Assembly (NCBI GenBank): GCA_947442625.1 | Contig: CANEWJ010000002.1 | Location: forward strand, 1 to 49,984 | DNA: 49,984 nt | Source: Chitinophagaceae bacterium | Lineage (GTDB): Bacteria > Bacteroidota > Bacteroidia > Chitinophagales > Chitinophagaceae | Direction of reading: 5' to 3' | Part shown: in pieces, positions 2,957 through 36,990 of the stretch | Position numbering within the stretch: position 1 is the first letter of the stretch | Layout of the letters: each line of letters opens with the position of its first letter | The notes under the pieces: model-generated | What the model saw: the letters and a program-made list of their open reading frames with translations, nothing else | Database searches by the model: none | Told to the model about the DNA's origin: nothing | Position numbers and translations under genes: made by a program

Positions 2957-4804
2957 ATGACCCAAAGAAAAGAAGAACTGCTCAGCGATATCGTGATCAA
3001 ATTTGCAGGGGATAGCGGAGATGGCATGCAGCTGACGGGAAGTCAATTCACAAACAATACTGCCTTGATGGGAATCGACCTCGCCACATTCCCAGATTTT
3101 CCCGCTGAAATCCGTGCGCCACAAGGTACCATTCCTGGCGTGAGTGGCTACCAGCTTCGTTTCTCAAGCGATGCCATCTATACCCCCGGAGACCTTTGTG
3201 ATGTGCTGGTGGCGATGAATGCGGCTGCCCTGAAAACCAATCTGAAAGCCATCAAAAAAGGAGGAAAAATCATTGCCAATGTGGATGGTTTCGATTCAAA
3301 AAACCTTCGTCTCGCCAACTACCCCGATGGCGTGAACCCGATTGAAGACGGATCCCTGGAAGGCTTTGAACTGATCAAAATGGATGTCACCAAAATGACC
3401 CGGGAGGCATTGAAAGACATCACCCTGGGCACCAAGGAAAAAGACAGGGCCAAGAACATGTTCGTACTAGGATTCCTTTACTGGATGTACAGCAGAGACA
3501 TGGACAGTACCCTGAAATTCCTGAACGAAAAATTTGGCAAGAAAGATGATATCCTGAATGCAAACCTCAAAGCATTGCAGGCAGGATACAATTATGGAGA
3601 TACTACTGAAACCTTCACCACAAGATACAAGGTTGAGAAAGCCAAGATGAAGCCTGGAAACTACAGGTCAATCATGGGAAATCAGGCAGTTTCATTGGGT
3701 TTGGTGGCAGCATCACAAAAAAGTGGACTGCCGATTTTTCTGGGCACCTACCCCATCACACCAGCCTCGGACATCCTGCACGACCTGAGCAAGATGAAGA
3801 ATTTTGGCGTAAAAACATTTCAGGCAGAAGATGAGATTGCGGGCATTACTGCAGCCATTGGGGCCAGCTATGGCGGTGCATTGGCCGTTACCACCACTTC
3901 AGGCCCTGGTATTGCCTTAAAGGGAGAAGCCATGGGTCTGGCCGTGATGCTTGAAATTCCTCTGCTGATCATCGATGTACAAAGGGGCGGGCCTTCAACC
4001 GGGCTTCCCACCAAAACAGAACAAAGCGATCTGCTGCAAGCATATTATGGAAGAAATGGCGAATGCCCAATGCCGGTGATTGCTGCTTCTACTCCCAGCG
4101 ATTGTTTCAGTGCCGTATATGAAGCCGTCAGGATTTCCCTGGAGCACATGACGCCAGTGATGTTCCTCAGCGATGGCTACATCGCCAACGGTGCAGAACC
4201 GTGGATGTACCCTCAAGCTGAAGACCTTCCCGCCATTACCGTCAAATTCAAAACTGCGTTGGATGAAGGAGAGGAAAGGTTTCAGCCCTACAAGCGCGAT
4301 GAGAAACTGGTGAGGCCCTGGGCACTTCCTGGTACAAAAGGACTTGAACACAGGATTGGAGGATTGGAAAAACAAGACATTACCGGCAACGTAAGCTATG
4401 AACCTGATAACCATGAACACATGGTGAAAACCAGGCAGGCAAAGGTGGATATGATTGCTCAATACATCCCCGAACAAAAAATTGACAGCGGTGCCGCCTC
4501 CGGAAAAGTATTGGTGCTCGGATGGGGAAGTACCTATGGCTCCATCAAAAGTGCTGTACAGGAATTGTTGCTGGAAGGCCAGGCGGTTTCACATGCGCAT
4601 ATCCGGTACATGCGTCCTTTCCCAAAAAATCTCGGAGACATCATCAAGCAGTTTGATACTGTCATTGTTCCAGAGATCAACAATGGACAACTGATCAAGA
4701 TCCTTCGTGATGTATACCTGGTGGATGCCAAGCCATACAACAAGATCAAGGGCACTCCGATTACCAAGGGTGAGTTGGTGGCGGAGATCAGGAAATATCT
4801 TTAG
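2957..4804 (+). CDS. korA: 2-oxoacid:acceptor oxidoreductase subunit alpha
   Basis: 615 aa; gamma-domain start IKFAGDSGDGMQLTGSQFT and alpha domain GTYPITPASDILHDLSKMK...QAEDEIAGITAAIGASYGGALAVTTTSGPG. Confidence 0.92.
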   Translation: MTQRKEELLSDIVIKFAGDSGDGMQLTGSQFTNNTALMGIDLATFPDFPAEIRAPQGTIPGVSGYQLRFSSDAIYTPGDLCDVLVAMNAAALKTNLKAIKKGGKIIANVDGFDSKNLRLANYPDGVNPIEDGSLEGFELIKMDVTKMTREALKDITLGTKEKDRAKNMFVLGFLYWMYSRDMDSTLKFLNEKFGKKDDILNANLKALQAGYNYGDTTETFTTRYKVEKAKMKPGNYRSIMGNQAVSLGLVAASQKSGLPIFLGTYPITPASDILHDLSKMKNFGVKTFQAEDEIAGITAAIGASYGGALAVTTTSGPGIALKGEAMGLAVMLEIPLLIIDVQRGGPSTGLPTKTEQSDLLQAYYGRNGECPMPVIAASTPSDCFSAVYEAVRISLEHMTPVMFLSDGYIANGAEPWMYPQAEDLPAITVKFKTALDEGEERFQPYKRDEKLVRPWALPGTKGLEHRIGGLEKQDITGNVSYEPDNHEHMVKTRQAKVDMIAQYIPEQKIDSGAASGKVLVLGWGSTYGSIKSAVQELLLEGQAVSHAHIRYMRPFPKNLGDIIKQFDTVIVPEINNGQLIKILRDVYLVDAKPYNKIKGTPITKGELVAEIRKYL

Positions 4805-4834
4805 GGTTTAGGAGTGTAAAGGTGTAGAGGTTTA
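4804..4834 (+). repeat. Degenerate octamer array, G-rich on +
   Basis: GGGTTTA-GGAGTGTA-AAGGTGTA-GAGGTTTA; overlaps the korA stop (TAG) and the stop (TAA) of the convergent oxidoreductase gene. Confidence 0.8.
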
Positions 4835-6022
4835 TAAGATTCTCTCCACAATCTTCCCTGTAGCCTTTTCTTTCAGGATCAGTTTTTTTGTGCCATAATG
4901 GGTCATCTCTTCCTTAACGAGATAATGGTCTGCATCAAATTCAACAAGGGTTCCTTGCTTGGTCTGCCCTTCAAGTCCACGCCAGTCCTGCAATTGAACG
5001 GGTTCCCAAATTTTTGATTTGGCACTTCTATAGGCGGCATCCAAGACTGCATTGACGATGTATCCATCGTAAAAAGTTTCTTTGGGTGCTTTGCCTTTTT
5101 CATAGGCATCAAACATATCAAAGAACATGTGGTTGTATCCCAGTTCGTTCAACTCATCCCCAACCGGAAACAACCAGCCAGTATTGGTTTCCGCTTTTTC
5201 TGCAACATAATCGGCGCCTTTTCCAGTAGTGAACATGTCAAAGCCTGTTCTCAAAAATCCGTTGATCCAGATGGTTCCTTCGGTTCCCATCACTTCATCA
5301 CGCAAATCCAATCCACCCCTGAACGTCCAGCTCACTTCAAACTGACCAATGGCCCCGTTTTCATATTTGACCAAGCCGATGGCATGATCCTCAGCATCAA
5401 TGGGCTTCACTTGTGTATCGGCCCAACACATCACTTCAACGGGCCTGATGTCCTTGCCGATATAACTTCTGGCAATTTCTACACAATGACATCCCAGGTC
5501 AAGCATACAACCGCCTCCTGCCTGCTCCAGGTCCCAGAACCAATCGCTGTGGGGGCCAGGATGGGCCTCTCGTGATTTTGCCCACAGTATTCTTCCGAGT
5601 GCACCGCTTTGAACACTGGCGTGCGCTTTGAGAAATTTTGGTGTATATACAAGGTCTTCAAGATAACCATTGAAGATGCCGGCATTTTCAACTGCTTCCA
5701 GCATGCGCTTGGCTTCTGCAGCATTCCGGCCAAGGGGCTTGGTGGAAATCACTGCTTTTTTATGCTTGATGCAGAGCATCACCGCTTCTTCATGCAGGTT
5801 GTTCGGGAGAGAGATGCAAACCATGTCTACATTGGGATGGGCAATCGCCTCCTCCATCACTGTGGTATAATGTTCGCACTGGTAATCTTCGGCAAACTTC
5901 TTTGCCTGTTCTTCTCTTCTTGAATAGATAGAAACAATTTTGTCGCGGCTTCTTAATCCTTGAATGGAGTCAGCATAAAATCTTCCGATGAATCCGGAGC
6001 CGAGCATGGCAAGTTTTACCAT
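4832..6022 (-). CDS. Gfo/Idh/MocA family oxidoreductase
   Basis: 396 aa; N-terminal Rossmann motif MLGSGFIGRFYADS and CISLPNNLHEEAVMLCIKHKKAVISTKPLGRNAAEAKRML. Confidence 0.9.
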   Translation of the reverse strand: MVKLAMLGSGFIGRFYADSIQGLRSRDKIVSIYSRREEQAKKFAEDYQCEHYTTVMEEAIAHPNVDMVCISLPNNLHEEAVMLCIKHKKAVISTKPLGRNAAEAKRMLEAVENAGIFNGYLEDLVYTPKFLKAHASVQSGALGRILWAKSREAHPGPHSDWFWDLEQAGGGCMLDLGCHCVEIARSYIGKDIRPVEVMCWADTQVKPIDAEDHAIGLVKYENGAIGQFEVSWTFRGGLDLRDEVMGTEGTIWINGFLRTGFDMFTTGKGADYVAEKAETNTGWLFPVGDELNELGYNHMFFDMFDAYEKGKAPKETFYDGYIVNAVLDAAYRSAKSKIWEPVQLQDWRGLEGQTKQGTLVEFDADHYLVKEEMTHYGTKKLILKEKATGKIVERIL

Positions 6023-6028
6023 TGTTTA

Positions 6029-6065
6029 TGGTTTAGAGGTTGAGGGGTTTAGGAGGTTGAGGTGG
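6029..6065 (+). repeat. Degenerate octamer array, G-rich on +
   Basis: TGGTTTA-GAGGTTGA-GGGGTTTA-GGAGGTTGA-GGTGG; overlaps the last codons and stop of the MFS gene (encodes ...TSTS*). Confidence 0.75.
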
Positions 6066-7272
6066 TTTTCTTGTCCTTAAAAAACAATACCAGAAAAACA
6101 AGGCTGATAGCTGCAATGCCTGCAGGAACAAGCCATACATGCAACCAATCGGTTACACCATCGGTAGTGTACTGATCCTTGACTTTCCCTGAAACGATGG
6201 AACCGATATACATGCCAATACCATAGGTGGCAAGGCTGATCAGTGCCTGCGCCTGAGACTTGATTTTTTCTCCGGCTTTCTGGTCGGTATAAATCATTCC
6301 ACTCACAAAAAAGAAGTCATAACAAACGCCATGCAGGAGTATCGCAGCATACAGCATCCATTGACTGGAAGCAGGATCGCCGTATCCAAAAAATACAAAG
6401 CGGAGAATCCATGCCAGCAATCCTACGATCAATATTTTTTTAACCCCAAATTTTCCGAAGGCAAAGGGCAACAAGAGCATGAACAACACTTCAGAAACCT
6501 GACCCAAAGACATGATGTTTTCTATCCTGAATGTTTTGGGATCGGCTGATGGGAATGCCATTTTATAGCCATCCGTAAGCGATGGGTTTGCCCAGGCATA
6601 ATAAAAAGAAAGGGGAATGCAAATCAATACCGAGGAGATGAAAAAGATGAGAAAAGAACGGTCTTTGAACAATACAAATGCGTCCTTGCCAATGATTTGT
6701 CCGAAGGTACTGGGGCCAGTTGCGGTGGGTGATGTTTTGGGAAGGAAAAAAGACATCAGTCCCAGCAAAAGAGCCGAGACCATGGCAATTTGAAAGATCA
6801 TGACATTGTCTCCCACACCCAGGTAACCAACCAGGTTGGTCACTGCAATCCATGCCAATGTTCCAAATACCCTGATGGCAGGAAACTCCTTTTCAGGATT
6901 GTTCATGGCACGCATGGCAATGGAACTGGTGAGTGCGATGGTTGGTGCAAAGGTCAAGCAGTAGGCGAGCATCACCCAATAGAATGTATTGGCATCTGTG
7001 ATGGTGGTCAACACATAGAGCAGGGCTGCTCCGGCAAGGTTCAAAACACCCAACACTTTTTGGGCTTCGAAGAACCTGTCGGCAAGCATTCCTACAAAAA
7101 AAGGTGCTGCAATCATGGCAATGGAAAATGCTGCGTAGGCACTGCCCACCTGCTCGCCCGTGGCATGCAACTGGTCGGTCATGTACTTGCTCATTTGACC
7201 GTACCATGAACCCCATACAAAGAATTGCATGAACATCATGAGCGATAACTGAATCCTGGTGATTGATTTCAT
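6049..7272 (-). CDS. MFS transporter, nucleoside permease/sugar:H+ symporter-like
   Basis: 407 aa, about 12 TM helices; MMFMQFFVWGSWYGQMSKYM start is typical of the nucleoside:H+ symporter (NupG-like) MFS group. Confidence 0.85.
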   Translation of the reverse strand: MKSITRIQLSLMMFMQFFVWGSWYGQMSKYMTDQLHATGEQVGSAYAAFSIAMIAAPFFVGMLADRFFEAQKVLGVLNLAGAALLYVLTTITDANTFYWVMLAYCLTFAPTIALTSSIAMRAMNNPEKEFPAIRVFGTLAWIAVTNLVGYLGVGDNVMIFQIAMVSALLLGLMSFFLPKTSPTATGPSTFGQIIGKDAFVLFKDRSFLIFFISSVLICIPLSFYYAWANPSLTDGYKMAFPSADPKTFRIENIMSLGQVSEVLFMLLLPFAFGKFGVKKILIVGLLAWILRFVFFGYGDPASSQWMLYAAILLHGVCYDFFFVSGMIYTDQKAGEKIKSQAQALISLATYGIGMYIGSIVSGKVKDQYTTDGVTDWLHVWLVPAGIAAISLVFLVLFFKDKKTTSTS

Positions 7273-7374
7273 GTGAAAAATTATGATTCCAAGATAAAGA
7301 TAATTTGGATGTGGGGCATCAATTGCTGGAAGACTGTCTCAGGGATTGTTGTAATTTGCATCCACAAATTTCAG

Positions 7375-8019
7375 ATGAAAAGAAAGGAACGCTACGATAA
7401 AGTGATTGAGCATTTTCAGGTGAACATCCCGGAAGCGGAAACAGAGCTCTTGTATGACAACCCATTTCAGTTGCTGGTGGCTGTCATCCTTTCTGCGCAA
7501 TGCACAGACAAGCGGGTGAACCTGACCACACCAGCCATTTTTGAAAAATTTCCAGACCCTGAAAGCATGGCTGCAACTGATTTTGACACCCTCTTTCCCA
7601 TCATAAGGAGCATCTCCTATCCCAACAACAAAACCAAGCACCTTATTGGAATGGCCAACATGTTGATGAACGATTTCAATGGTGAAGTGCCCATGACGGT
7701 GGAAGAACTGATCAAGCTGCCTGGTGTTGGCAGAAAAACAGCCAATGTAATCACTTCCGTGATTGACCAACAGCCGAACATGGCGGTAGATACCCATGTG
7801 TTCCGGGTATCTGCCAGGCTGGGGCTTACCCGTGGAGCCAAAACCCCATTGGCAGCAGAGAAACAATTGATCAAAAATATTCCGAAAGAGTTGGTGCACA
7901 AGGCCCACCATTGGCTGATCCTGCATGGCAGGTATACTTGCATTGCCAGAAGCCCCAAATGTGGTGAATGTGGATTGACAGCCATCTGTCTTTACCACAA
8001 GGCCAATAACAAAATGTAA
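7375..8019 (+). CDS. nth: Endonuclease III
   Basis: LLVAVILSAQCTDKRVNLTTPAIF, LPGVGRKTANVI, VDTHVFRVSARLGLT and the C-terminal 4Fe-4S motif CIARSPKCGECGLTAIC. Start set at MKRKERYD inside the longer ORF. Confidence 0.95.
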   Translation: MKRKERYDKVIEHFQVNIPEAETELLYDNPFQLLVAVILSAQCTDKRVNLTTPAIFEKFPDPESMAATDFDTLFPIIRSISYPNNKTKHLIGMANMLMNDFNGEVPMTVEELIKLPGVGRKTANVITSVIDQQPNMAVDTHVFRVSARLGLTRGAKTPLAAEKQLIKNIPKELVHKAHHWLILHGRYTCIARSPKCGECGLTAICLYHKANNKM

Positions 8020-8112
8020 ACGCCTCTTGGCGAACCAGATTTGAAACCATCATTTCTCTTATTTGTTCTGCACTTTGGGTGAGAGGGAGAATTGAAAATC
8101 CCAAGCCCTTTC

Positions 8113-8343
8113 TTATTGCATGGAGAATCCCTTTAATGCAACATAAGACATGATGTGGTCAATTGAACTCCCAGCAGGACTGAGCTTGATATTGTTGAGT
8201 ACATCAAAACCCTCCTTCATCCGGGCGTATTGCTCCATCATGGCCGGGTTGTTTTCGACGAATAATAAAAAGTGGGCACTCTCCTCAGAAGACATTTCAC
8301 TGTAAAGGTAACGTAACATGGATTCGAATATTAATAAATTCAT
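8113..8343 (-). CDS. Small protein, possible anti-sigma-factor-like stub (hypothetical)
   Basis: 76 aa ORF in a gap with no competing gene; LRYLYSEMSSEESAHFLLFVENNPAMMEQYARMKEGFDVL resembles Bacteroidota helical zf-HC2-like N-termini. Confidence 0.55.
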   Translation of the reverse strand: MNLLIFESMLRYLYSEMSSEESAHFLLFVENNPAMMEQYARMKEGFDVLNNIKLSPAGSSIDHIMSYVALKGFSMQ

Positions 8344-8526
8344 AATCAGTCTTTTATCAATTAGACATGATTGAAAAAGGATAGTCGGATTTGATGGTCA
8401 TTGACAGGATAGAAGTATGGAATGGTTATCAGATCTTGATTGCACGTTCACCTGACCTCCCTAAAACGGAAATAATTGGTTGATATTGCATTGCCCGTCA
8501 ATAGTTTTGACTACTAATACTGGGTC

Positions 8527-8820
8527 TCATTTTTCCCTGACCAGAAATATATCTTCGTTGTCCCGCTTCATGAGGTACTGCTCTCGGGCAATTTTTTCCA
8601 TCCAGAGCGGGTTGGTCTTGATCAGGTCGATATCATTTTTCGTCTTTTCGATCTGATCCTTGTAATATTGTTTACGCTCCTTGAGATCATTCAATTCAGC
8701 CCGGTATTGGAGGTGCAGGAACAGGTTGTTGTGGTCGAAAAATAGCATCCACCCCACAAATAAAATGGAGGCCAGCACAAACTTGTTTTTGACAATACGG
8801 AGGAGCTTCATTGATTGCAT
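8527..8820 (-). CDS. Septum formation initiator (FtsB/DivIC) family protein
   Basis: One TM helix, then coiled coil (YRAELNDLKERKQYYKDQIEKTKNDIDLIKTNPLWMEKIAREQYLMKRDNEDIFLV). Start at MQSMKLLRIV. Confidence 0.85.
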   Translation of the reverse strand: MQSMKLLRIVKNKFVLASILFVGWMLFFDHNNLFLHLQYRAELNDLKERKQYYKDQIEKTKNDIDLIKTNPLWMEKIAREQYLMKRDNEDIFLVREK

Positions 8821-8890
8821 AAAATTAGGATATTTTTCCGGTCCTTGAACCTCAGCACCTTGTCCATTGCATTTCGTACCTTTACCCCCA

Positions 8891-9880
8891 ATGGAAAAAT
8901 CAAATTTTGTAGACCAGATAAGGGTGTTTTGCAAAAGCGGACACGGTGGGGCGGGCAGCAAGCACTTCATGCGGACCAAATTCAATGCCCAGGCGGGGCC
9001 AGATGGAGGCGATGGAGGCCGTGGCGGTCATATCATCCTGAGGGGAAACAATCACCTGTGGACACTGCTTCACCTGCGTTATTATAAAAACGTCATTGCT
9101 GAAGATGGACAGGGGGGCAACAAAAACAACATGACCGGCAGGGATGGCCATGACATCATCATCGAAGTTCCACTCGGTACCTTAGCTGTGGACGAAGGGA
9201 CCGGAGACAAGGATGGTGAAATCCTGGAAGATGGCCAGGAGTTCATTTGGGTAAAAGGTGGAAGGGGTGGATTGGGCAACAAGAACTTTGCCACAGCCAC
9301 CAACCAGGCACCGGAATACGCACAACCCGGAGAGGAAGGATTTGAGGGATGGAAAGTCCTTGAACTAAAAGTATTGGCGGATGTAGGACTGGTAGGCTTT
9401 CCCAACGCGGGAAAATCAACCCTGCTCTCTTCGCTGACTGCCGCAAGGCCCAAAATCGCAGATTATGCATTTACCACCCTTACCCCACAACTGGGCATGG
9501 TGGAATACCGCGATGGGAAATCCTTTTGTATTGCAGATTTACCGGGTATCATTGAAGGTGCTGCTGAAGGGAAGGGTCTCGGCCATCGCTTCCTGCGCCA
9601 TATCGAAAGAAACCCTGTATTGGTTTTCCTGATCCCTGCGGACAGCAAGGACCATAAAAAAGAACTGGAAATCCTGTTCAATGAACTCGAGGAATACAAT
9701 CCGGAACTGCTCGATAAAAAATTCATCATCGCCGTCAGCAAAAATGATATGCTGGACGATGAGCTGAGAACAGCGATAGCAAAAGAACTTCCAACCGATA
9801 TTCCGCATGTGTTCATTTCTTCAGTATCCGGTTCAGGACTGCTGGAACTGAAAGACATGCTTTGGAAAGAACTTCAGTAG
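8891..9880 (+). CDS. obg: GTPase Obg/CgtA
   Basis: Gly-rich OBG fold ([14 protein letters not shown]), P-loop [43 protein letters not shown]. Start taken at [12 protein letters not shown]. Confidence 0.96.
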
Positions 9881-9903
9881 AGGAGGAATGCAGCAGCGGA
9901 GGG

Positions 9904-9926
9904 CAAACCTAAACACCTAAACCACC
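9904..9926 (+). repeat. Short octamer repeat, C-rich on + (weak copy)
   Basis: CAAACC-TAAACACC-TAAACCAC-C just upstream of the patatin gene; only about two units. Confidence 0.45.
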
Positions 9927-9929
9927 GAT

Positions 9930-12134: not shown

Positions 12135-12151
12135 TGCCCTCAATCCACAGG

Positions 12152-14880: not shown

Positions 14881-14887
14881 GGGCTAT

Positions 14888-23118: not shown

Positions 23119-24627
23119 ATGAAATTGCTAAGTCCTGCCATATCATCCCTGGCCAGATTGCGCTCTTGGCGCATAGAAGCCTGGATCCAGCATCCCATCT
23201 CAGCGCAAAGAGAGGTATTGCAAGACCTGGTAACCGCAGCACAGTTCACTGAAATTGGCAGGCAATACGAATTTTCTAAACTCTTCACCACAAAAGCATT
23301 CAAACAGGCTGTTCCCATACACGAATATGAGGACATCAAACCCTATGTGGAAAGGATCATGGCCGGAGAACAAAACCTGCTTTGGAACACCCCCATCAAT
23401 TGGTTTGCCAAAAGCAGCGGAACAACCTCAGACAAGAGCAAATTCATCCCTGTAAGCCAGGAAAGCCTGGAGGACGGACATTTCAAAGCGGCAAAAGATG
23501 TGCTTTCCCTTTACTACATGCAGAACCCGGAATCTGATCTGCTTACCGGAAAAGGGCTGATGATTGGAGGAAGCCATACCATCAATAATTTGCATGAAGA
23601 CACCCATTTTGGGGACCTGAGTGCCGTACTGATGCAAAACACGCCATTCTATGGCAACTGGATAAGAATACCAGAATTGAGGATCGCCCTGATGGACGAA
23701 TGGGAAGGGAAGATTGAAAAGCTGGCAGAAACCACCATGAACGAAAATGTTACTTCAGTTTCGGGTGTGCCCACCTGGACCATTGTCTTGTTCCAAAGGA
23801 TCCTGGAATTGACGGGCAAAAAAAATATGAAAGAAGTGTGGCCGTCCCTGGAGCTTTATTTTCATGGAGGTGTTTCCTTTCATCCCTATAGGGAACAATT
23901 CAAAAAATTGATTGGCGGAGATATCCATTACCTGGAAATGTACAATGCCAGCGAAGGTTTCTTTGCCGCCCAGGACATACCCGGGTCTGAGGGCATGATG
24001 CTTTTCCTCGACCATGGTATTTTCTATGAGTTCATGCCAATAGAAGAATATGGCAAGGATGAGCCAAGAACCATTGGGCTCAAAGATGTTGAGATAGGAC
24101 AACACTATGCTCCGGTCATCAGCACCAACGGAGGGCTCTGGCGTTACCTGATTGGAGATACGGTTGAGTTCACCAGTATAGCCCCCTTCCGGATAAAAGT
24201 CGTTGGCCGCCTGAAGCTTTACATCAATGCCTTTGGCGAAGAACTCATCATCGACAATGCAGAGAGGGCGATTGCCGAATCCTGCAAAATCACCGAGGCC
24301 GTCATTGCTGACTATACAGCAGGTCCGGTATATTTCAGTGAAGAGGGAAACGGCGCCCACGAATGGCTGATAGAGTTTGAAAAAGAACCCAAGGACCTCA
24401 CCCTTTTTTCTATCATCCTGGATGAGGAATTGAAAAAGCTGAACAGCGACTACGAAGCCAAGCGATACAAGAACATTGCACTCAGGCCTCCCCTTGTCAA
24501 ATCCCTTTCCCATGGGCACTTCAACAAGTGGCTGAAGCAAAAAAACAAACTTGGCGGACAGCATAAAGTACCCCGGTTGAGCAATGACAGGAGAATTATT
24601 GAGGAGGTGTTGGGGTTGGGGTTATAG
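23119..24627 (+). CDS. GH3 auxin-responsive promoter family protein (acyl-adenylating family)
   Basis: 502 aa; LLWNTPINWFAKSSGTTSDKSKFIPVS, EMYNASEGFFAAQD, YINAFGEELIIDNAERAI are hallmark GH3-like segments. Confidence 0.9.
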   Translation: MKLLSPAISSLARLRSWRIEAWIQHPISAQREVLQDLVTAAQFTEIGRQYEFSKLFTTKAFKQAVPIHEYEDIKPYVERIMAGEQNLLWNTPINWFAKSSGTTSDKSKFIPVSQESLEDGHFKAAKDVLSLYYMQNPESDLLTGKGLMIGGSHTINNLHEDTHFGDLSAVLMQNTPFYGNWIRIPELRIALMDEWEGKIEKLAETTMNENVTSVSGVPTWTIVLFQRILELTGKKNMKEVWPSLELYFHGGVSFHPYREQFKKLIGGDIHYLEMYNASEGFFAAQDIPGSEGMMLFLDHGIFYEFMPIEEYGKDEPRTIGLKDVEIGQHYAPVISTNGGLWRYLIGDTVEFTSIAPFRIKVVGRLKLYINAFGEELIIDNAERAIAESCKITEAVIADYTAGPVYFSEEGNGAHEWLIEFEKEPKDLTLFSIILDEELKKLNSDYEAKRYKNIALRPPLVKSLSHGHFNKWLKQKNKLGGQHKVPRLSNDRRIIEEVLGLGL

Positions 24628-24667
24628 AGGTTTAGGGGTGTAGGGGTCTAGAGGGTGTAGGGGTGTA
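24627..24667 (+). repeat. Degenerate octamer array, G-rich on + (left arm of an inverted pair)
   Basis: GAGGTTTA-GGGGTGTA-GGGGTCTA-GAGGGTGTA-GGGGTGTA immediately after the GH3 stop. Confidence 0.85.
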
Positions 24668-24830
24668 GGTTATTTATTAGCGAAGATTATTGCAGTTTTT
24701 CAATAATTTTGATCAACGATTTTGATAAATCCAGCCAACAAAATTGGGTATACCCACTTTCCCTAAATGCTATACATTTTATTCATATCGACCATTTTGT
24801 AGACAAGCCCATACCAAAAGCGTTAACTCC

Positions 24831-24870
24831 TTCAACCCCCTAAACCTCTAAACCCTTTAACCCCTCAACC
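24831..24870 (+). repeat. Degenerate octamer array, C-rich on + (right arm of an inverted pair)
   Basis: TTCAACCCCC-TAAACCTC-TAAACCCT-TTAACCCC-TCAACC, ending 5 bp before the fabG start. Confidence 0.85.
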
Positions 24871-24875: not shown

Positions 24876-25631
24876 ATGAAACTCCTCGACAACAAAATAG
24901 CTATCGTTACAGGCGCAGCGCGCGGAATTGGTGAAGCCATTGCAGTTAAACTGGCTGAACATGGTGCGCATATTGCATTTACCTACGTAAGCGAGGGCAG
25001 TGCCGACAAGGCCGCCGCCTTGGTCACCAAGCTCGAAGGAATGGGCGTGAAAGCCAAAGCATGGAGAAGCAATGCAGGTAATTTTGCAGAATCTGAGGCT
25101 TTTGTGAATGATGTGGTGAAAGAATTCGGAACGGTAGATGTTTGCATCAACAATGCAGGCATTTCCAAGGATAACCTGCTGCTCAGGATGACCCCTGAGC
25201 AATGGGATGAAGTGATGGAAGTCAACCTGAAAAGTGTATTCAACATGACCAAGCAGGTCATCAGGCCGATGATGAAAGCAAGAAAGGGATCTATCGTCAA
25301 CATGAGCTCTATTATAGGGATCCGTGGCAATGCAGGCCAGTCAAGCTATGCAGCCAGCAAGGCCGGTATCATTGGTTTTACCAAGTCCATGGCACATGAA
25401 TTGGGCAGCAGAAACGTTCGTGTGAATGCCATTGCCCCAGGATTTGTGGAGACAGACATGACCCACTACCTGCAAGAAGGAGAGGCCGCGAAGGCATTCC
25501 TGGCCAAAATTCCCCTGGGCAGGTTCGGCTCTGCAGAAGAAATTGGCAATACCACCCTTTTCCTGGCATCAGACATGAGCAGTTATATCACAGGACAGGT
25601 GCTCAGCACCTGTGGAGGCCTTAATATATAA
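24876..25631 (+). CDS. fabG: 3-oxoacyl-[acyl-carrier-protein] reductase
   Basis: SDR motifs IVTGAARGIGEAIA, INNAGISKDNLLLRM, catalytic S...YAASKAGIIGFTKSMA, NAIAPGFVETDM, GQVLSTCGGLNI. Confidence 0.93.
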   Translation: MKLLDNKIAIVTGAARGIGEAIAVKLAEHGAHIAFTYVSEGSADKAAALVTKLEGMGVKAKAWRSNAGNFAESEAFVNDVVKEFGTVDVCINNAGISKDNLLLRMTPEQWDEVMEVNLKSVFNMTKQVIRPMMKARKGSIVNMSSIIGIRGNAGQSSYAASKAGIIGFTKSMAHELGSRNVRVNAIAPGFVETDMTHYLQEGEAAKAFLAKIPLGRFGSAEEIGNTTLFLASDMSSYITGQVLSTCGGLNI

Positions 25632-29151: not shown

Positions 29152-29245
29152 ATTAGATTTGTGGTGAAACAAGACCGGAAACCACATCATTGCGGGCAAA
29201 ATCCTTAATGATGCATGAATGGACAAAAGCAATAAATAGAGAACA

Positions 29246-29776
29246 ATGAATAGAATCACTTTCCTCCTGATGGCAACAGCGCTGATACAGTTCAGCTGCA
29301 GCAATGCGCAGGAAAAAAACAAAAAAACAGCTACAAAAATGAGTGACACAACAAGCAATCCTGCCTTCTCCAGGAACAACGAAGAAAAGGTTGAGCTTAC
29401 CGATGAGCAATGGAAAAAGGCACTGACACCTGAGCAGTATTATATTGCCAGGCAGAAGGGAACAGAAAGACCCTGGACCAGCAAATTTGAAAAGTTTGAT
29501 GAGAAAGGAACCTATTACTGTGCCGCCTGTGGCAACACATTGTTCCAGAGCAATACCAAATTTGACAGCGGCTGTGGATGGCCCAGCTTTTTTGAACCGG
29601 TCAACAAAAAAAGCATCATCTACACCCCAGACAATACCCTCGGCATGAAAAGAACCGAAGTCCAATGCGGAAAATGCAAGGCCCATCTTGGACATGTATT
29701 CGATGACGGACCACCGCCAACAGGCTTGAGGTATTGCATCAATGGGGTGATTTTGGGGTTTGAGAAGAAAGGGTGA
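29246..29776 (+). CDS. msrB: Peptide-methionine (R)-S-oxide reductase, lipoprotein-like export signal
   Basis: TKFDSGCGWPSFFEP, YYCAACGN, VQCGKCKAHLGHVFDDGPPPTGLRYCINGV; N-terminal signal MNRITFLLMATALIQFSCSN. Confidence 0.95.
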   Translation: MNRITFLLMATALIQFSCSNAQEKNKKTATKMSDTTSNPAFSRNNEEKVELTDEQWKKALTPEQYYIARQKGTERPWTSKFEKFDEKGTYYCAACGNTLFQSNTKFDSGCGWPSFFEPVNKKSIIYTPDNTLGMKRTEVQCGKCKAHLGHVFDDGPPPTGLRYCINGVILGFEKKG

Positions 29777-29824
29777 GGGTGTAGAGGTGTAAAGGTTTAG
29801 AGGTTTAGAGGTTTAGGGGTTTAG
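29777..29824 (+). repeat. Degenerate octamer array, G-rich on + (left arm)
   Basis: GGGTGTA-GAGGTGTA-AAGGTTTA-GAGGTTTA-GAGGTTTA-GGGGTTTA-G; six consecutive units, starting directly at the msrB stop. Confidence 0.92.
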
Positions 29825-29833
29825 AAAAATAGA

Positions 29834-29860
29834 ATGGGGTCAAGAAAAACTTGACCCCAT
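29834..29860. terminator. Bidirectional terminator-like hairpin between convergent msrB and YceI genes
   Basis: ATGGGGTCAAG (29834-29844), loop AAAAA, CTTGACCCCAT (29850-29860); perfect 11-bp stem. Flanking T/A tracts are weak. Confidence 0.65.
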
Positions 29861-29901
29861 TTCATTTTGTGTATCGCTAACATTGGTGGCTGATAAAAGA
29901 T

Positions 29902-29941
29902 TCAACCCTGTAAACTGCTACACCCTAAACCTTTTACCCTA
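29902..29941 (+). repeat. Degenerate octamer array, C-rich on + (right arm)
   Basis: TCAACCCT-GTAAACTGC-TACACCC-TAAACCTT-TTACCCTA; overlaps the YceI stop codon. Confidence 0.75.
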
Positions 29942-30526
29942 TTTCGCCTGATCCATCTCAAGCAATACAGTAATGTCAACATCCTTTCCTACAGCCAGAC
30001 CGCCGGTTTCCAGGGCTGGTGCATATTTCAGGCCATACGTAAGACGATCGATGGTAGTTTTGGCTTTGAAACCTGCTTTCACACCACGTCCGGTATTGAT
30101 TTGACCACCATAGGTAACATCAAATGTTACGGTTTTGGTTACATCCCTAAGGGTAAGATCGCCAGTAAGGGCATATTTGTTGCCACCCAATGGCTTCATT
30201 GACTTGCTTACAAAGCTCATCTTGGGGAATTTCTCAGCATTAAAGAAATCATCGCTTTTCAGGTGACCATCCCTCTTCTCGTTGTCTGTATTCACAGATG
30301 CAACATCAACAGAGAAATTCACTTTGGCATCAGAAAGATCTGCTTTGGAAGCCACCAGGCTACCATCAAACATCCTGAACGAACCTTCCACTTCAGAAAC
30401 CACCATGTGAGACACGGCAAACTTCACGTTGGAATGTGCCTTGTCAACTTTCCATGTGGTCTGTGCCACCGCACCTGATACTCCTAAAAGCAAAAACGCT
30501 GCAAGATTGAATAACTGTTTTTTCAT
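29939..30526 (-). CDS. YceI family protein
   Basis: Signal peptide, then TTWKVDKAHSNVKFAVSHMVVSEVEGSFRMFDG and NEKRDGHLKSDDFFNAEKFPKMSFVS. Confidence 0.93.
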   Translation of the reverse strand: MKKQLFNLAAFLLLGVSGAVAQTTWKVDKAHSNVKFAVSHMVVSEVEGSFRMFDGSLVASKADLSDAKVNFSVDVASVNTDNEKRDGHLKSDDFFNAEKFPKMSFVSKSMKPLGGNKYALTGDLTLRDVTKTVTFDVTYGGQINTGRGVKAGFKAKTTIDRLTYGLKYAPALETGGLAVGKDVDITVLLEMDQAK

Positions 30527-30682
30527 TGTATTTGTTTTTGATGTTTAAACACTAAATTAATTCGTTTCACCAACATAGCAATATGGTTCAGTTAAGTTAA
30601 ACAGATTTTTGGCGATTTTGTTCAACAAAAAGAAATTTTCCGACAACCTGATTAATCCATAATTTTCCAAAAATTGAACCCA

Positions 30683-33600
30683 ATGGCCATGATAAAAAGG
30701 TTTTCATTGTTTTTGCTGCTTGTTATGATCATCAGCAATGCCTCATTTGCACAAAAGATTGGTTTGGACCAATTCAAGTCCTGGAAACCCAGGAATATTG
30801 GTCCTGCAGGAATGAGTGGCCGCATCACTGCGATCGATGCAGTAGTGGCAGACCCCAATACCATTTACCTGGGTGCTGCTTCTGGCGGCGTTTGGAAAAC
30901 CGTCAATCAGGGCGCCAGCTGGGAGGCTGTATTTGAAGAACAACCTATTCTCAACATTGGTTCCATTGCCATCCAGCAATCCAACCCCTCAACCGTATGG
31001 GTAGGAACAGGCGAAGGAAACCCCAGAAACTCTATCAGCCTTGGAGAAGGGATGTACAAGACCATCGACGGCGGTAAAAGCTGGAAAAAAATGGGGCTTG
31101 AGAAAACCCGCAACATCCACCGCATCATCGTAGATCCTTCCAATCCCAATACTGTTTATGCAGGTGCCATAGGCAACCCTTATGCAGAACATCCTGAAAG
31201 GGGCGTCTTCAAAACCACCAATGGTGGTGAAACCTGGGACAAGATCCTTTTTACCAACGATACTTCCGGCGTAGCCGACATGATCATGGACCCCTCCAAC
31301 CCTAACAAATTGTTTGTAGCCATGTGGCAACACCGCAGAACGCCCTGGAGCCTCAGCAGTGGTGGACCTGGCAGTGGTCTGTACATGACCTTTGATGGTG
31401 GAAAGAACTGGAAAAAATTAGGCGAAAAAGAAGGTTTGCCTGCTGGCAACCTTGGCAGGATCGGACTGGCCATTTCCCGCAGCAACCCCAACCGTGTGTA
31501 TGCATTGGTGGAAGCAACAAAAAATGGATTGTATAAATCCGATGATGGCGGACAGACCTGGTCGCTCATGAACAGCAACCCTGAGTTTGTTTCAACCAGG
31601 CCTTTCTATTTTCAAGAGATCGCCTGCGATCCTCAAAATGAAAACAGGCTCTGGCTGATCTATCAAATGATCTCCAAAAGCGATGATGCCGGAAAGAATT
31701 TTGACGTTGTCATCCCTTACAATGGCATTCATCCAGACCACCATGCTTTCTGGATCCATCCCACCAATCCCAATTTTATCATTGATGGAAACGATGGCGG
31801 GATCGGCATTACAAGAGACAAGGGCAAGACCTGGCTCTTTGATGAGAAGCTGCCCGTAGGCCAATTCTACCACATCAATGTAGACAATGAAATGCCTTAC
31901 AATGTGATGGGTGGCATGCAAGACAATGGCAGCTGGCGCGGACCAGCCTATACCTGGATGAGTGGTGGTATCAAGAATTATTATTGGGACAACCTTTGGG
32001 GTGGTGATGGATTTGATGTGATGCCCGACAAGGATGATGCATCATGGGTATATGCCATGAGCCAGGGCGGATCTGTTGGCCGGTACAACGTTAAAACAGG
32101 CGAAAGCTGGTACGTAAAACCGCCAGCACCAGACCTCAAAACAACACTGCGCTTCAACTGGAATGCTGCCATTGCCCAAGATCCTTTCAGCAATTCCACC
32201 ATCTACTTTGGGAGCCAACACCTGCACCGCTCCACCAACAAGGGTGCTTCATGGGAAATCATCTCACCAGATCTTTCAACCAATGACAGTGCCAAAATTG
32301 ACCAAAGGAACAATGGTGGTATATCCATAGACATCACCGGTGCAGAAAACTTCTGTACCATCATGACCATAGCACCTTCATCCAAAGACAACAATGTGAT
32401 CTGGGCAGGAACAGATGATGGCAATGTGCAGCTGACCAAAGACGGGGGCAAGACATGGACAAACTTCAGGGGTAAAATACCAGGTCTGCCTGTTGGCGCC
32501 TGGATTCCACAGATTCAGGCATCAAGGTACAATGCGGCCGAAGCCTTCGTGGTAGCCAATGATTACAGGAGGGGTGATTTCAAACCTTATATTTTCAGGA
32601 CCACAGATTTTGGAAAAACGTGGACAAGGTTGGTTGATGAGAAAAAAGTCATCGGTTATGCCCTTTGTGTTTTGCAGGATCCGACAGAGCCTAACCTGAT
32701 CTTTGCCGGAACGGAGCAGGGACTTTGGGTAAGCCTTGACAACGGCAATAGCTTTCAGCAATGGAAGAATGGATACCCCAGCGTGTCTACTTATGACCTT
32801 GCTATACAAGAACGCGAAGCGGATCTTGTGATTGCAACATTTGGACGCGCACTTTGGATCCTTGACGACATCTGGCCATTGAGAAAACTTGCTGCCAGCA
32901 AAGGCTTGCTGAACAAGGATTTTGTAGCCTTTGACAGCCGCAATGTGGTACAGGCCCAATTCAAGAATGCTCCGGGATATGAGTGGAGCACCTGGGGAAT
33001 CTGGGATGCCGATAACAGACCTGCCAGTGCACCCATCTCCTATTTTATCAAGGCTTCTTCAGACACATCAGCAAAAGCCAAAAAAGATTCAGTAGTTGTA
33101 AAAATTTACAACGATAAAAATGAAGTGATCAGGAACCTGAGATGGGCTGCTGATTCAGGATTCAACAGGGCTTACTGGGGAATGGAAGAAAAAGGATACC
33201 GCACACCTGGCGCTGGTGGCGGAAGAAGAATGGGCGGCGGCGGCGGAGGCCGTGGAGGCGCAGAACCAGGAGGACAACAGGCTCTACCTGGTACCTACAA
33301 AGTGGTTTTGGCTTACAAAGGCATCAGCGACTCTACCATGATTACCCTCCTCGATGATCCACGTTTGGGCAACAGAAACAACATCAAGTTGGCACAGGCT
33401 GCATTGCGTGCAGAACTGAAGAAAAGCGGGGACCAGCTCATTGAGGCAATGGACCTGCTGACAGAGGCTGATGAGGCAAGCAAAAAAGTAGAAACTTATA
33501 TCAAGGAGATGAAAGGTGCGACGGTTGATTCCCTTAAAAAATCAACCAAGAAACTTCAGGACGAGATTAAGGTATTGAGAGAATTCATCAACGGTACAAC

Positions 33601-33841
33601 CCAAACCAAACAGGGTTACGGACAGGTTCCTCAAATCACGGTCATGAACCAATACCAGCAGGCAAGCAGTGCCATCAGTTCCAAAGCCATTGAACCTGGA
33701 GCACAGGAAAAAATGCTGGTGGAAAGGGCAGCTGGTCTGATCAGTGAAGCTGTAAAAAAAGTAACTGCTTTCAAAGAAGGAAGCTGGAAAAAATACATGG
33801 AGCAGGTCAGTGCAACGAAGATGGATCCTTTTGGAAAGTAA
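30683..33841 (+). CDS. VPS10/sortilin-like BNR-repeat (beta-propeller) exported protein
   Basis: Repeated SxDxGxTW motifs (VNQGASWEAV, IDGGKSWKKM, TNGGETWDKI, FDGGKNWKKL, DDGGQTWSLM, KDGGKTWTNF, TDFGKTWTRL); signal peptide; Gly-rich linker GGGRRMGGGGGGRGG. Confidence 0.88.
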   Translation: MAMIKRFSLFLLLVMIISNASFAQKIGLDQFKSWKPRNIGPAGMSGRITAIDAVVADPNTIYLGAASGGVWKTVNQGASWEAVFEEQPILNIGSIAIQQSNPSTVWVGTGEGNPRNSISLGEGMYKTIDGGKSWKKMGLEKTRNIHRIIVDPSNPNTVYAGAIGNPYAEHPERGVFKTTNGGETWDKILFTNDTSGVADMIMDPSNPNKLFVAMWQHRRTPWSLSSGGPGSGLYMTFDGGKNWKKLGEKEGLPAGNLGRIGLAISRSNPNRVYALVEATKNGLYKSDDGGQTWSLMNSNPEFVSTRPFYFQEIACDPQNENRLWLIYQMISKSDDAGKNFDVVIPYNGIHPDHHAFWIHPTNPNFIIDGNDGGIGITRDKGKTWLFDEKLPVGQFYHINVDNEMPYNVMGGMQDNGSWRGPAYTWMSGGIKNYYWDNLWGGDGFDVMPDKDDASWVYAMSQGGSVGRYNVKTGESWYVKPPAPDLKTTLRFNWNAAIAQDPFSNSTIYFGSQHLHRSTNKGASWEIISPDLSTNDSAKIDQRNNGGISIDITGAENFCTIMTIAPSSKDNNVIWAGTDDGNVQLTKDGGKTWTNFRGKIPGLPVGAWIPQIQASRYNAAEAFVVANDYRRGDFKPYIFRTTDFGKTWTRLVDEKKVIGYALCVLQDPTEPNLIFAGTEQGLWVSLDNGNSFQQWKNGYPSVSTYDLAIQEREADLVIATFGRALWILDDIWPLRKLAASKGLLNKDFVAFDSRNVVQAQFKNAPGYEWSTWGIWDADNRPASAPISYFIKASSDTSAKAKKDSVVVKIYNDKNEVIRNLRWAADSGFNRAYWGMEEKGYRTPGAGGGRRMGGGGGGRGGAEPGGQQALPGTYKVVLAYKGISDSTMITLLDDPRLGNRNNIKLAQAALRAELKKSGDQLIEAMDLLTEADEASKKVETYIKEMKGATVDSLKKSTKKLQDEIKVLREFINGTTQTKQGYGQVPQITVMNQYQQASSAISSKAIEPGAQEKMLVERAAGLISEAVKKVTAFKEGSWKKYMEQVSATKMDPFGK

Positions 33842-33853
33842 TTTTTTGATTGT

Positions 33854-33894
33854 AAGCCATGGGTTGAGGAGCATTCCTTGACCCATGGCTTTTG
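33854..33894. terminator. Bidirectional terminator-like hairpin
   Basis: AAGCCATGGGTTGAGGA (33854-33870) / TCCTTGACCCATGGCTT (33875-33891), 17-bp stem with two G-U-type positions, followed by TTT. Confidence 0.75.
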
Positions 33895-33895
33895 A

Positions 33896-34147
33896 TTAGT
33901 TCCTGTTCACCAAAAACTGAAAAGGCTTGATAGCATTGGGTTTCAGCGCCTTTGAAACCGAGAGGTGATCATGGAAAATCTTAAACCGGTTGAGGTCAAT
34001 GAGTTCATAGGCAACACAGAGTGCAGTGGTTGTTTCAACGTTTTGCAACAAATTGTTCAGGACAGCAATTTCCATTTCAATGGAAATTTTATCCCGAACT
34101 TCATCCTTGCGGAGCAACAACAAATCCCTGGTTTGACGTTTCATCAC
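33896..34147 (-). CDS. Small hypothetical protein
   Basis: 83 aa ORF with ATG start and its own gap after a terminator hairpin; no recognised domain. Confidence 0.5.
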   Translation of the reverse strand: MMKRQTRDLLLLRKDEVRDKISIEMEIAVLNNLLQNVETTTALCVAYELIDLNRFKIFHDHLSVSKALKPNAIKPFQFLVNRN

Positions 34148-34359
34148 TTATTTAATATCCCACGAAACCTTTTTTTGGAGGACAGCCACAACTGCTTTTG
34201 TTGCTGACACCACAAGACATCATGGTTGTTATGCTTATTAATATAAAAACAACTAAAATTGTTCTCTTGAATACATGCTTCATCTACTGCTAATGTACAT
34301 TTTATGTAAATTAAAAATGCAAATGTTGGCCAATTATAACAAATTTTAAATCTTTACCC

Positions 34360-35448
34360 ATTTCTGCGAATAAGCAAATAACAAGACCTACCGCACTGAT
34401 TGCCCCACTGGACTGGGGACTAGGGCATGCCACCCGTTGCATCCCCCTGATCAGTTACCTGCTTGACCTCGGATGGGAGCTCAGCCTTGCAGCTGAAGGA
34501 AATATAGCGGCTTTGCTGACCAGGGAATTCCCTCAACTCAAGGTTATCCCCCTGAAAGGCTACCGCATCAGCTACCCCAAGAAAGGCACATTGTTCATCC
34601 CAAAGATATTGATGCAAGTGCCTAAAATTGTTCGTTCCATCAAAAATGAACACCGTTGGCTGGACCATCAACTGGATACCCACCAATGGGATTTGATCAT
34701 CAGCGACAACCGCTATGGGCTCTATACTACCAGAACCAAGACTGTTTTCATCACACACCAGCTGGGCATCATTTCAGGATTTGGAAGGATGGGTGATGGG
34801 CTGCTAAGGACCTTGCTATACAGATGGATCAACAGGTTCAACATTTGCTGGGTACCCGATGCGACAGAAAAACCCAATATAGCCGGAAAATTATCACATC
34901 CCCAGTGCATGCCCAACCATTACGCCTTCATCGGGCCCCTTTCCCGGTTGAACAAAGCCAAGCCATGGGCAGATGAACGCCTGCTGGTGCTCTTGTCAGG
35001 GCCTGAACCGCAGCGCACCATCCTGGAGAAAAAGCTGATTGATCAGCTTTCCAACACAGAAGAGGCGGTGGTATTTGTCAGAGGACTGCCATCTTCGGCA
35101 CCCTTGATCGAGAACAGGGGCAGGATCCGGTTTGAAAACCACCTGGATGCAAAAGCATTGTCTGAGATGCTTTCCACTGCCAAAGCAGTGATTTGCCGCT
35201 CGGGCTATTCTTCAGTGATGGACCTTATGAAGTTGAAAAAGAGGGCCTTGCTGATTCCTACCCCAGGGCAAACGGAACAGGTGTATCTGGCAAGGCACCT
35301 TGGCGCACTGCGTTGGTTCGCGGTGCAGGAACAAGAGGACCTTGATCTGAAAAAAGGGATTGCTGCAGCTTTGAGCCAAACCATTGAATTTCCAGCCCTT
35401 GATTTTGAAGCCTTCAAAAAAGCTTTTGCCAATTTGGGCATCCAATAA
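34360..35448 (+). CDS. Glycosyltransferase (MGT/GT28-like)
   Basis: Frame reads SANKQITRPTALIAPLDWGLGHATRCIPLISYLLDLGWELSLAAEGN upstream of the ORF-track start at 34513; C-terminal AKAVICRSGYSSVMDLMKLKKRALLIPTPGQTEQVYLARHL. Start placed at ATT 34360 because no ATG/GTG/TTG exists upstream in frame. Confidence 0.8.
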   Translation: MSANKQITRPTALIAPLDWGLGHATRCIPLISYLLDLGWELSLAAEGNIAALLTREFPQLKVIPLKGYRISYPKKGTLFIPKILMQVPKIVRSIKNEHRWLDHQLDTHQWDLIISDNRYGLYTTRTKTVFITHQLGIISGFGRMGDGLLRTLLYRWINRFNICWVPDATEKPNIAGKLSHPQCMPNHYAFIGPLSRLNKAKPWADERLLVLLSGPEPQRTILEKKLIDQLSNTEEAVVFVRGLPSSAPLIENRGRIRFENHLDAKALSEMLSTAKAVICRSGYSSVMDLMKLKKRALLIPTPGQTEQVYLARHLGALRWFAVQEQEDLDLKKGIAAALSQTIEFPALDFEAFKKAFANLGIQ

Positions 35449-35513
35449 ACAGATGTGCCACCATAGCACAATTTTTGTTAACTTGACATTTACTAAAACC
35501 GAAACCAAAGCAC

Positions 35514-36761
35514 ATAAGAAAACTTTGTTTGACCATCCTTTTAGGATGCTTCAGTATCTCCCTTTTCTCCCAGTCCACCTTCCCCGTGAATGGTGTGGCA
35601 GACGAAAGGGAAACAACCTTTGCCTTTAAAAATGCAACAATTGTCAAGGATGCACAAAATACCCTGACCAATGCCACCATGATTGTCCGCAACGGAAAGA
35701 TCACCGCCATTGGAACCGCGGTAACCATTCCTGCTGATGCCATTGTTGTTGACTGCACCGTAAGGGCTACTGATGATGAAACCGAGATTGGTGAATACAA
35801 TCCATCCGTCCGTTCCATTGTAGCCTACAATACCGATTCAAAAGTGATCAATACCTTGAAGACGAATGGCATCACCCATGCCAACATCGTGCCGCAAGGG
35901 GGCACCATCAGTGGTTCATCTTCCGTTGTCCAGCTCGATGCCTGGAACTGGGAAGATGCAGCCTATGCAGCAGACAATAACATTCACATGAACATGCCTG
36001 CTCTCTACAACAGACCCAGCCGCTATGGTGGATTTGGCGGTGGACAAGGACCACAAGTGGATCCATTGAAAAGGGGAATTGAGCAGCTCGAGGAGATCAA
36101 GGATTTCTTCCGTGCAGCAAAGGCCTACAATGATCAGGCCGTCAAAACAGCTGCCAATATCAAATTTCAAGCAGTAGAAGGGCTTTTCAGCAAAAAGCAA
36201 AAACTCTTCATCCGCTGCAATGTGGTGCGGGAAATCCTTGCGGCCATTGACTTCAAGACTGAGTTTGGATTTGATATCGTACTGGTTGGTGCAACAGAAA
36301 GCCATCAGGTGGGAGACATCCTCAAGCGCAACAACATCCCTGTCATCCTCAGCCAGATGCATGCCCTTCCTACATTGGCCGATGATGGCGTTGATCTTCC
36401 TTACCAACATCCTGCCCTGCTTCAAAAAGCTGGTGTGCAGTTTGCGATTTGTGATGAAGACGGCCAACAAAGGGGTAAGAACCTTCCGTTTCAGGCAGGA
36501 ACCGCTGCCGCTTACGGATTGACCAAAGAAGAAGCGCTTACCTCCATCACCCTGAATGCAGCCAAAATTTTGGGCATTGCAGACCGCACAGGTTCTATTG
36601 AAACCGGCAAGGATGCAAATATTGTCATCAGCGAAGGGGACATCCTCGACATGCGCAGCAGCAATATTTCACTGGTGATGATTGGTGGCCGCATGGTCAG
36701 CCTTACCGACAAACACAAACAGTTGTATGAGCGGTATATGGTGAAGTATGGGTTGAAGTAG
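35514..36761 (+). CDS. Exported amidohydrolase family protein
   Basis: ATVRATDDETEIGEYNPSVRSIVAYNTDSKVINTLKTNGI-type segment, GGTISGSSSVVQLDAWNWEDAAY, C-terminal ITLNAAKILGIADRTGSIETGKDANIVISEGD. Signal peptide RKLCLTILLGCFSISLFSQ implies a start at ATA 35514 rather than TTG 35529. Confidence 0.8.
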   Translation: MRKLCLTILLGCFSISLFSQSTFPVNGVADERETTFAFKNATIVKDAQNTLTNATMIVRNGKITAIGTAVTIPADAIVVDCTVRATDDETEIGEYNPSVRSIVAYNTDSKVINTLKTNGITHANIVPQGGTISGSSSVVQLDAWNWEDAAYAADNNIHMNMPALYNRPSRYGGFGGGQGPQVDPLKRGIEQLEEIKDFFRAAKAYNDQAVKTAANIKFQAVEGLFSKKQKLFIRCNVVREILAAIDFKTEFGFDIVLVGATESHQVGDILKRNNIPVILSQMHALPTLADDGVDLPYQHPALLQKAGVQFAICDEDGQQRGKNLPFQAGTAAAYGLTKEEALTSITLNAAKILGIADRTGSIETGKDANIVISEGDILDMRSSNISLVMIGGRMVSLTDKHKQLYERYMVKYGLK

Positions 36762-36816
36762 GGTTTAGAGGTGTAGGGGTTTAGAGGTTTAGGGTGTAAA
36801 GGTGTAGGGGTTTAAG
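36761..36816 (+). repeat. Degenerate octamer array, G-rich on + (left arm)
   Basis: GGGTTTA-GAGGTGTA-GGGGTTTA-GAGGTTTA-GGGTGTA-AAGGTGTA-GGGGTTTA-AG; seven units, directly following the amidohydrolase stop. Confidence 0.92.
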
Positions 36817-36852
36817 AAACTTTTTTATTCAACATGCACTGGGATCAAATAG

Positions 36853-36888
36853 TAAAAGGGCTCATGCAATACTGCTTGAGCCCTTTTA
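36853..36888. terminator. Bidirectional terminator-like hairpin inside the octamer inverted pair
   Basis: TAAAAGGGCTCA-T-GCA / TGC-T-TGAGCCCTTTTA, 12-bp stem plus 3 bp after one mismatch, loop ATAC. Confidence 0.75.
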
Positions 36889-36910
36889 TCGTAAAAATTT
36901 ATCTTTTTTT

Positions 36911-36990
36911 CTTAAACCCCGAAACCTTTGACCCATTAAACCCTTCAACCTCTAAACCCCTACACCCCGATACCTATTTCCTAAACCCCT
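36911..36990 (+). repeat. Degenerate octamer array, C-rich on + (right arm)
   Basis: TTAAACCCC-GAAACCTTTGACCCATTAAACCCTTCAACCTC-TAAACCCC-TACACCCC-GATACC...CTAAACCCCT; overlaps the stop and last codons of the haloperoxidase-like gene. Confidence 0.85.

Follow-up and report, generated by a model that had tools for sequence, protein, structure and literature searches.

What kind of repeat is the telomere-like octamer that recurs at gene ends in this Chitinophagaceae genome, and what keeps it there? The window, a stretch of 49,984 bases, is the start of contig C2 of a metagenome-assembled genome (MAG; 2.60 Mb in 211 contigs, 92% complete, 3.4% contamination) from a species represented by one genome. 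Among named genomes, those closest to it are Chitinophagaceae MAGs; several of these carry lake- or reservoir-style sample names, from which we infer a freshwater (lake) habitat. An earlier note on this DNA had described a family of octamer arrays dispersed at gene ends. Scanning with a cyclic 8-state profile (threshold of at least 25 bits; control, the reversed, non-complemented sequence) bore out that family: arrays of the unit RRGGTKTA, dispersed at internal sites, numbered 58 against 4 in the control over the 1.68 Mb sampled of the 2.60-Mb MAG, with strong enrichment at gene ends, and in the first 1.18 Mb there were 53 such segments against 4. Enrichment was also evident across the whole MAG, where the 18-base pattern GGTKTARRGGTKTARRGG, allowing up to 2 mismatches, gave 394 matches against 7 in the reversed sequence. 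Successive GGTKTA cores were most often spaced 8 apart (126 cases, versus none at 8 in the control), followed by 16 and 24; the best period was 8 in 51 of 53 arrays, and lengths in this first set had a median of 52 bp and ranged from 27 to 208 bp. The octamer unit is non-palindromic.

The eight principal arrays listed for the window all had a genuine 8-bp period and scored 27 to 77 bits each. A ninth, weaker array proposed at 9904-9926 scored 18.9 bits, a level at which real and control counts are alike (79 versus 54 at 18 bits or more), and it is thus unsupported. The arrays, the genes against which they lie, and the elements found between them are as follows (scores in bits).
2957-4804, + strand: 2-oxoacid:ferredoxin oxidoreductase-like gene with POR domains
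4800-4834, + strand: array at the stop of gene 2957-4804 (+); score 42
4832-6022, - strand: Gfo/Idh/MocA-like gene (Pfam)
6024-6068, + strand: array 1 bp upstream of the start codon of gene 4832-6022 (-), pointing away from it; score 43
24604-24669, + strand: array covering the final codons and the stop of GH3-domain gene 23119-24627 (+); score 68
24690-24711, + strand: promoter-like element TTGCAGTTTTTCAATAATTTTG, between arrays 24604-24669 and 24829-24870
24829-24870, - strand: array 5 bp upstream of the ATG of gene 24876-25631 (+); score 50
29246-29776, + strand: SelR (methionine sulfoxide reductase-like) gene
29777-29825, + strand: array at the stop of gene 29246-29776 (+); score 75 for the segment 29751-29825
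29832-29862, no strand assigned: terminator-like hairpin whose two strands both have T-rich tails, between arrays 29777-29825 and 29901-29940
29901-29940, - strand: array at the stop of the YceI-like gene 29939-30526 (-); score 27
36760-36816, + strand: array at the stop of the amidohydrolase-like gene 35529-36761 (+); score 77
36854-36889, no strand assigned: terminator-like hairpin, between arrays 36760-36816 and 36911-36990
36911-36990, - strand: array at the stop of the PAP2-domain gene 36974-38281 (-); score 67

Several of these arrays touch more than one gene or are composite. The sense strand of 4800-4834 is G-rich and directed off gene 2957-4804, and the array also reaches the stop end of the next gene; the far end of 6024-6068 covers the last codons of a transporter gene (6049-7272, - strand; Pfam); and in 36911-36990 the octamer signal runs up to 36974 and is followed by a short piece at 36980-36990. 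Array 24829-24870 forms the C-rich leader of a short-chain dehydrogenase-like gene (24876-25631, + strand). Functions of the genes beside the window arrays are unrelated to one another, and a search of the whole window against Rfam gave no match over the arrays to a known structured RNA family. The element TTGCAGTTTTTCAATAATTTTG resembles the Bacteroidota -33/-7 promoter; it was kept in the relatives G183, G172, and G171 and slightly altered in others. A hairpin related to 36854-36889 occupied the equivalent place in G162.

Across the sampled genome, the arrays set out from the border of a constrained element, in most cases the stop or start of an open reading frame (ORF), with the G-rich strand running 5' to 3' outward. 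The 5' end of that strand abuts the gene end: the distance to the gene behind had a median of 0 bp over the 58 arrays and was at most 10 bp for 48 of them, compared with 5 of 55 for the gene ahead (1.68 Mb). Among these 48 flush arrays, 32 lay at stop codons, often covering the last codons, and 16 at start codons, in some cases with zero bases between array and ATG. The true flush count is higher than 48, because genes were called with a simple ORF caller and 2 of the 10 remaining arrays are window arrays (29751-29825 and 36911-36974) whose true neighbors, against both of which they are stop-flush, it missed. The earlier description of the arrays as intergenic or overlapping last codons was therefore incomplete, since 6024-6068 (1 bp) and 24829-24870 (5 bp) abut start codons. 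Neighboring pairs within 350 bp were convergent in 18 of 18 cases, and the two arms of a pair were no likelier to be alike than random arms (permutation p 0.71; first 17 pairs). As arms are not partner-specific, a pair amounts to two independent arrays, one per gene end, and a hairpin or foldback origin of convergent pairs was rejected on the same grounds. A handful of arrays off ORFs, judged by eye, touch another constrained element: at one locus (L020) an array directly follows a terminator hairpin, while its partner and one array at a second locus (L011) end upstream of a promoter-like element, and in other genera two or three arrays directly follow terminator-like hairpins (including G125 L133 and G050 L128). 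By base composition, no decayed array sequence was seen ahead of the arrays.

Assembly error was considered as a source of this distribution. The apparent confinement of arrays to some contigs arose because array-bearing contigs had been chosen, and chimerism or a binning artifact in the MAG was rejected: over 101 loci, clustering of arrays gave p 0.33 when gap-weighted (intergenic) and p 0.03 by length. Alignment of G162 to both array-bearing (87%) and array-free (84%) contigs likewise argues against chimerism.

Six congeneric species align to the window at about 85 to 93% nucleotide identity, and at orthologous gene ends these relatives have G-rich tracts in the same orientation as in the window's genome, built from different units: the 9- to 10-mers GGTTGAAGR and GGTTGAGRGA (GGTTGARGR) and the 7-mer GGGAYRA. 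The stop of the GH3-domain gene bears GGTTGAAG or GGGACGA arrays in relatives, and that of the amidohydrolase-like gene bears other units in G162, G164, and G183. Array 24829-24870 was absent from G172, G176, and G183 and replaced by other units in G162 and G171; array 29901-29940 was absent from G172 and G176, and G164 had another unit. A few sites have the octamer in common, such as array 4800-4834 in G164. Comparing gene edges between the window's genome and G162, 15 were array-positive in both, 4 and 4 were discordant, and 100 were positive in neither (Fisher 2e-12). Summed over five other relatives, 10 of 16 edges positive in the window's genome were positive, compared with 4 of 78 negative ones (10, 6, 4, 74); this comparison is the cleaner, as the five were fetched by similarity alone, whereas contigs of G162 were picked partly for repeat matches, and both tables include a few threshold-level positives that are not true arrays. 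Among species of the genus, only the window's genome is rich in the octamer; in it, the 9-mer pattern has 15 matches (70 to 154 in several relatives) and the 7-mer pattern has none (234 in G168); farther afield, the octamer pattern was found in only 12 of 150 family genomes and 10 of 297 phylum genomes, mostly with few matches. Between array-bearing and array-free orthologues at the YceI stop, much of the native 3' region is kept, with only a dozen-odd stop-adjacent bases replaced. Many sites are thus retained from species to species even as one unit gives way to another, which means that the unit sequence itself is not what is conserved.

The same alignments contained other differences. Small palindromes (GCCAGCCGAAGGCTGG, CTGCCTTCGGCAG, and CCAACCAGAGGTTGG) lie inside gene-edge arrays of G162, G164, G171, and G183 (loci L062-L089 and L104-L123) and look like a second, separate repeat family. 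Compared with contig C19 of G164 (L185), about the first 3 kb of the window (1-3000) is 99 to 100% identical and the remainder about 80 to 97% identical, in 300-base steps; this block has the look of a recent exchange bounded close to where gene 2957-4804 begins, or else of a binning artifact. At 35758-35766, within the amidohydrolase-like gene, G183 and G162 hold about 3.15 kb extra; the gene matches the C-terminal part only of the Pfam profile and probably arose when a deletion in the window's genome fused neighboring genes. G164 also carries a 2-kb segment with small ORFs (C19:11424-13396; L092 993-2965) where the intergenic region of the window is only about 28 bp, and G176 aligns across that point without the segment.

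Quadruplex folding, which the earlier note raised on account of the regular GG runs, could act by regulating genes from folded arrays or by driving one-sided deletion of DNA on the 5' side; one-sided deletions at G-quadruplexes are documented, as in Caenorhabditis elegans dog-1 mutants, whose deletions have their 3' junction at the quadruplex and their 5' junction 50 to 300 bp away (PMC4654259), and the Xanthomonas repeats form quadruplexes in vitro (PMC4692102). A weak, two-G motif was present in 48 of 53 octamer arrays and 29 of 53 reached a G4Hunter score of at least 1.2, yet the three-G motif occurred in only 11 of 53. Among arrays pooled across genomes that combined a G4Hunter score below 0.8 with lack of the two-G motif, 47 of 60 were closer to the gene behind and 13 to the gene ahead, with 18 versus 2 within 15 bp. 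At loci picked for octamer-like matches in three other genera, arrays of units richer in AT, AGTTTAAA among them, showed this polarity too. (In G140, a second array type, AATGTGCTGATGTGCC, sits beside AGTTTAAA arrays in the same intergenic regions at L137, L139, and L140.) Since arrays devoid of quadruplex potential are polar as well, folding is unnecessary for polarity, and we regard a quadruplex-based explanation as improbable. Still further from likely is addition by a telomerase-like or other reverse transcriptase, or mobility of the REP/RAYT type, appealing as the telomere-like unit and the outward 3' polarity at gene ends may be: the 92%-complete genome gave no Pfam match to RVT_1 and none to Y1_Tnp, with control genomes positive for both, the unit is not palindromic, and its length varies from 7 to 10 across relatives. 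The dispersed, internal sites and the lack of an RVT_1 match speak against a telomerase-like reverse transcriptase origin, and the non-palindromic unit and the lack of a Y1_Tnp match against REP/BIME elements with RAYT. What remains of the telomere analogy drawn earlier is a resemblance of sequence, which does not extend to location or to a reverse transcriptase detectable by Pfam.

Polarity could also result without a special enzyme if slippage were random, arrays arose in any orientation, and selection purged G-rich leaders (with their start codons and Shine-Dalgarno-like motifs) and C-rich trailers. Consistent with such a filter, the C-rich octamer strand has no G and hence no ATG, GTG, or TTG, and the G strand is rich in stops, which fell in all three frames in 45 of 53 arrays, compared with 41% of shuffles. 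A filter alone, though, predicts spread-out distances behind genes, where a peak at 0 bp was observed, and leaves unexplained both the terminator-abutting arrays and the single genome-wide unit; we hold it to be rather unlikely. The main rival, which we judge unlikely on balance while giving it more weight than the filter, is that the arrays are functional untranslated-region elements, selected as leaders or trailers for an effect on RNA and perhaps recognized by an RNA-binding protein or pairing among themselves, the leader being G-free and unstructured beside the ATG and the trailer C-free and stop-rich. Most arrays do adjoin start or stop codons, their sites are kept between species, the three-frame stops fit a trailer role, and a similar role was suggested for TAACTGA repeats (PMC4679880). 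Against this, the unit differs between close relatives, making sequence-specific recognition unlikely; some arrays probably fall outside the transcript, either following a terminator or preceding a promoter-like element; genes neighboring the window arrays are functionally unrelated; and for the Xanthomonas repeats no expression effect was found (PMC4692102).

The reading we favor, tentatively and on circumstantial evidence, is that arrays are repeatedly remade at one site by trimming and re-extension, with selection as a backstop. The G-rich strand would repeatedly lose bases from its outward 3' end and regain them through slippage or by switching template to arrays elsewhere in the genome; such switching could spread one unit genome-wide. 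Each cycle might delete neutral DNA between array and gene, until purifying selection halted the erosion at an ORF, promoter, or terminator. Arrays would then be mostly self-maintaining by-products, with selection acting on leaders and stop regions as an additional filter on their orientation. Remaking with a selective backstop would explain why the near edge is flush and the far edge free, why arms are independent, and why the unit is uniform across the genome. Two observations weigh against it: the native 3' region largely left in place at the YceI stop, and the lack of visible array remnants ahead of the arrays. That gene-edge arrays in unrelated phyla come from one general replication- or repair-linked process, which extends G-rich strands outward from constrained DNA, independently of quadruplexes, and rewrites dispersed units together, is a more speculative and, in our estimation, doubtful extension; if true, it would amount to concerted evolution of a dispersed bacterial satellite, akin to turnover of eukaryotic telomeres and satellites.

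A 2015 study had already reported the placement rule in Xanthomonas and Nostoc, leaving it unexplained. Its occurrence in Bacteroidota with several units means that the rule is not bound to one sequence, and the polarity of non-quadruplex arrays tells against what is generally assumed to explain G-rich repeats. Close relatives that keep sites while swapping units make it testable which process remakes arrays at fixed gene ends and homogenizes them genome-wide. Gene-edge arrays can also break assemblies, as at contig C45, whose end interrupts an array.

Eukaryotic telomere repeats of the TTTTAGGG type are G-rich octamers, and the arrays described here are likewise G-rich, of similar sequence, with the G strand running outward from the gene; unlike telomeres, they are internal, short, degenerate, and off chromosome ends, and no reverse transcriptase was found. 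The STRR sequences of heterocystous cyanobacteria are degenerate short tandem heptamers dispersed between genes and specific to strains. Octamer arrays share that degeneracy, dispersal, and strain specificity, and differ in that STRR are cyanobacterial heptamers. We found no paper on octamer intergenic repeats in Bacteroidetes or Chitinophagaceae in the open-access literature; the earlier note's statement that no named bacterial family fits was nonetheless partly wrong, as heptamers of Xanthomonas and Nostoc (PMC4692102) and TAACTGA repeats (PMC4679880) precede the octamer. In Beggiatoaceae, Cyanobacteria, and five Bacteroidetes, MacGregor (2015) found heptamers of TAACTGA close to start codons (PMC4679880). 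These too are short intergenic tandem arrays, often near start codons and lineage specific, but they are not G-rich, have one fixed unit, and mostly precede starts, with a single orientation in the genome that was studied most, whereas the octamer differs in unit and length and two-thirds of its flush arrays are at stops.

Closest are the dispersed, intergenic, G-rich tandem arrays reported by Rehm et al. (2015), GGGAATC in two Xanthomonas genomes and GGGGA(C/T)T in Nostoc, whose 5' neighboring ORF averages 28 nt away and next ORF 160 nt, whatever the ORF strand, so that the sense strand follows stops and the antisense strand precedes starts (PMC4692102). Xanthomonas has 70 to 75 convergent pairs per genome and conserved GGGAATC sites, and Nostoc the same placement with few pairs; neighboring genes had no common function, and no function was found (PMC4692102). 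The RRGGTKTA arrays (58 in 1.68 Mb) are likewise G-rich, tandem, dispersed, and mainly noncoding, nearer to the 5' ORF (48 of 58 versus 5 of 55 within 10 bp), stop-sense and start-antisense, and convergent where paired (18 of 18). They differ in having an 8-bp unit that is neither GGGNATC nor GGGGAYT, in another phylum, making them a variant and a different repeat; in much tighter abutment (median 0 bp); in relatives that swap unit and length (7, 8, 9, or 10) at the same gene ends; and in a polarity that extends to units without quadruplex potential. Three-G-tract quadruplexes with a four-unit preference also characterize the kind described by Rehm et al.; among the octamer arrays, only 11 of 53 had a three-G motif. 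The octamer arrays are therefore gene-edge, G-rich short tandem arrays of the Xanthomonas/Nostoc kind, with a unit particular to one Chitinophagaceae lineage; what is new here is that unit, its tighter abutment, its independence from quadruplex potential, and the turnover of units at conserved gene ends.
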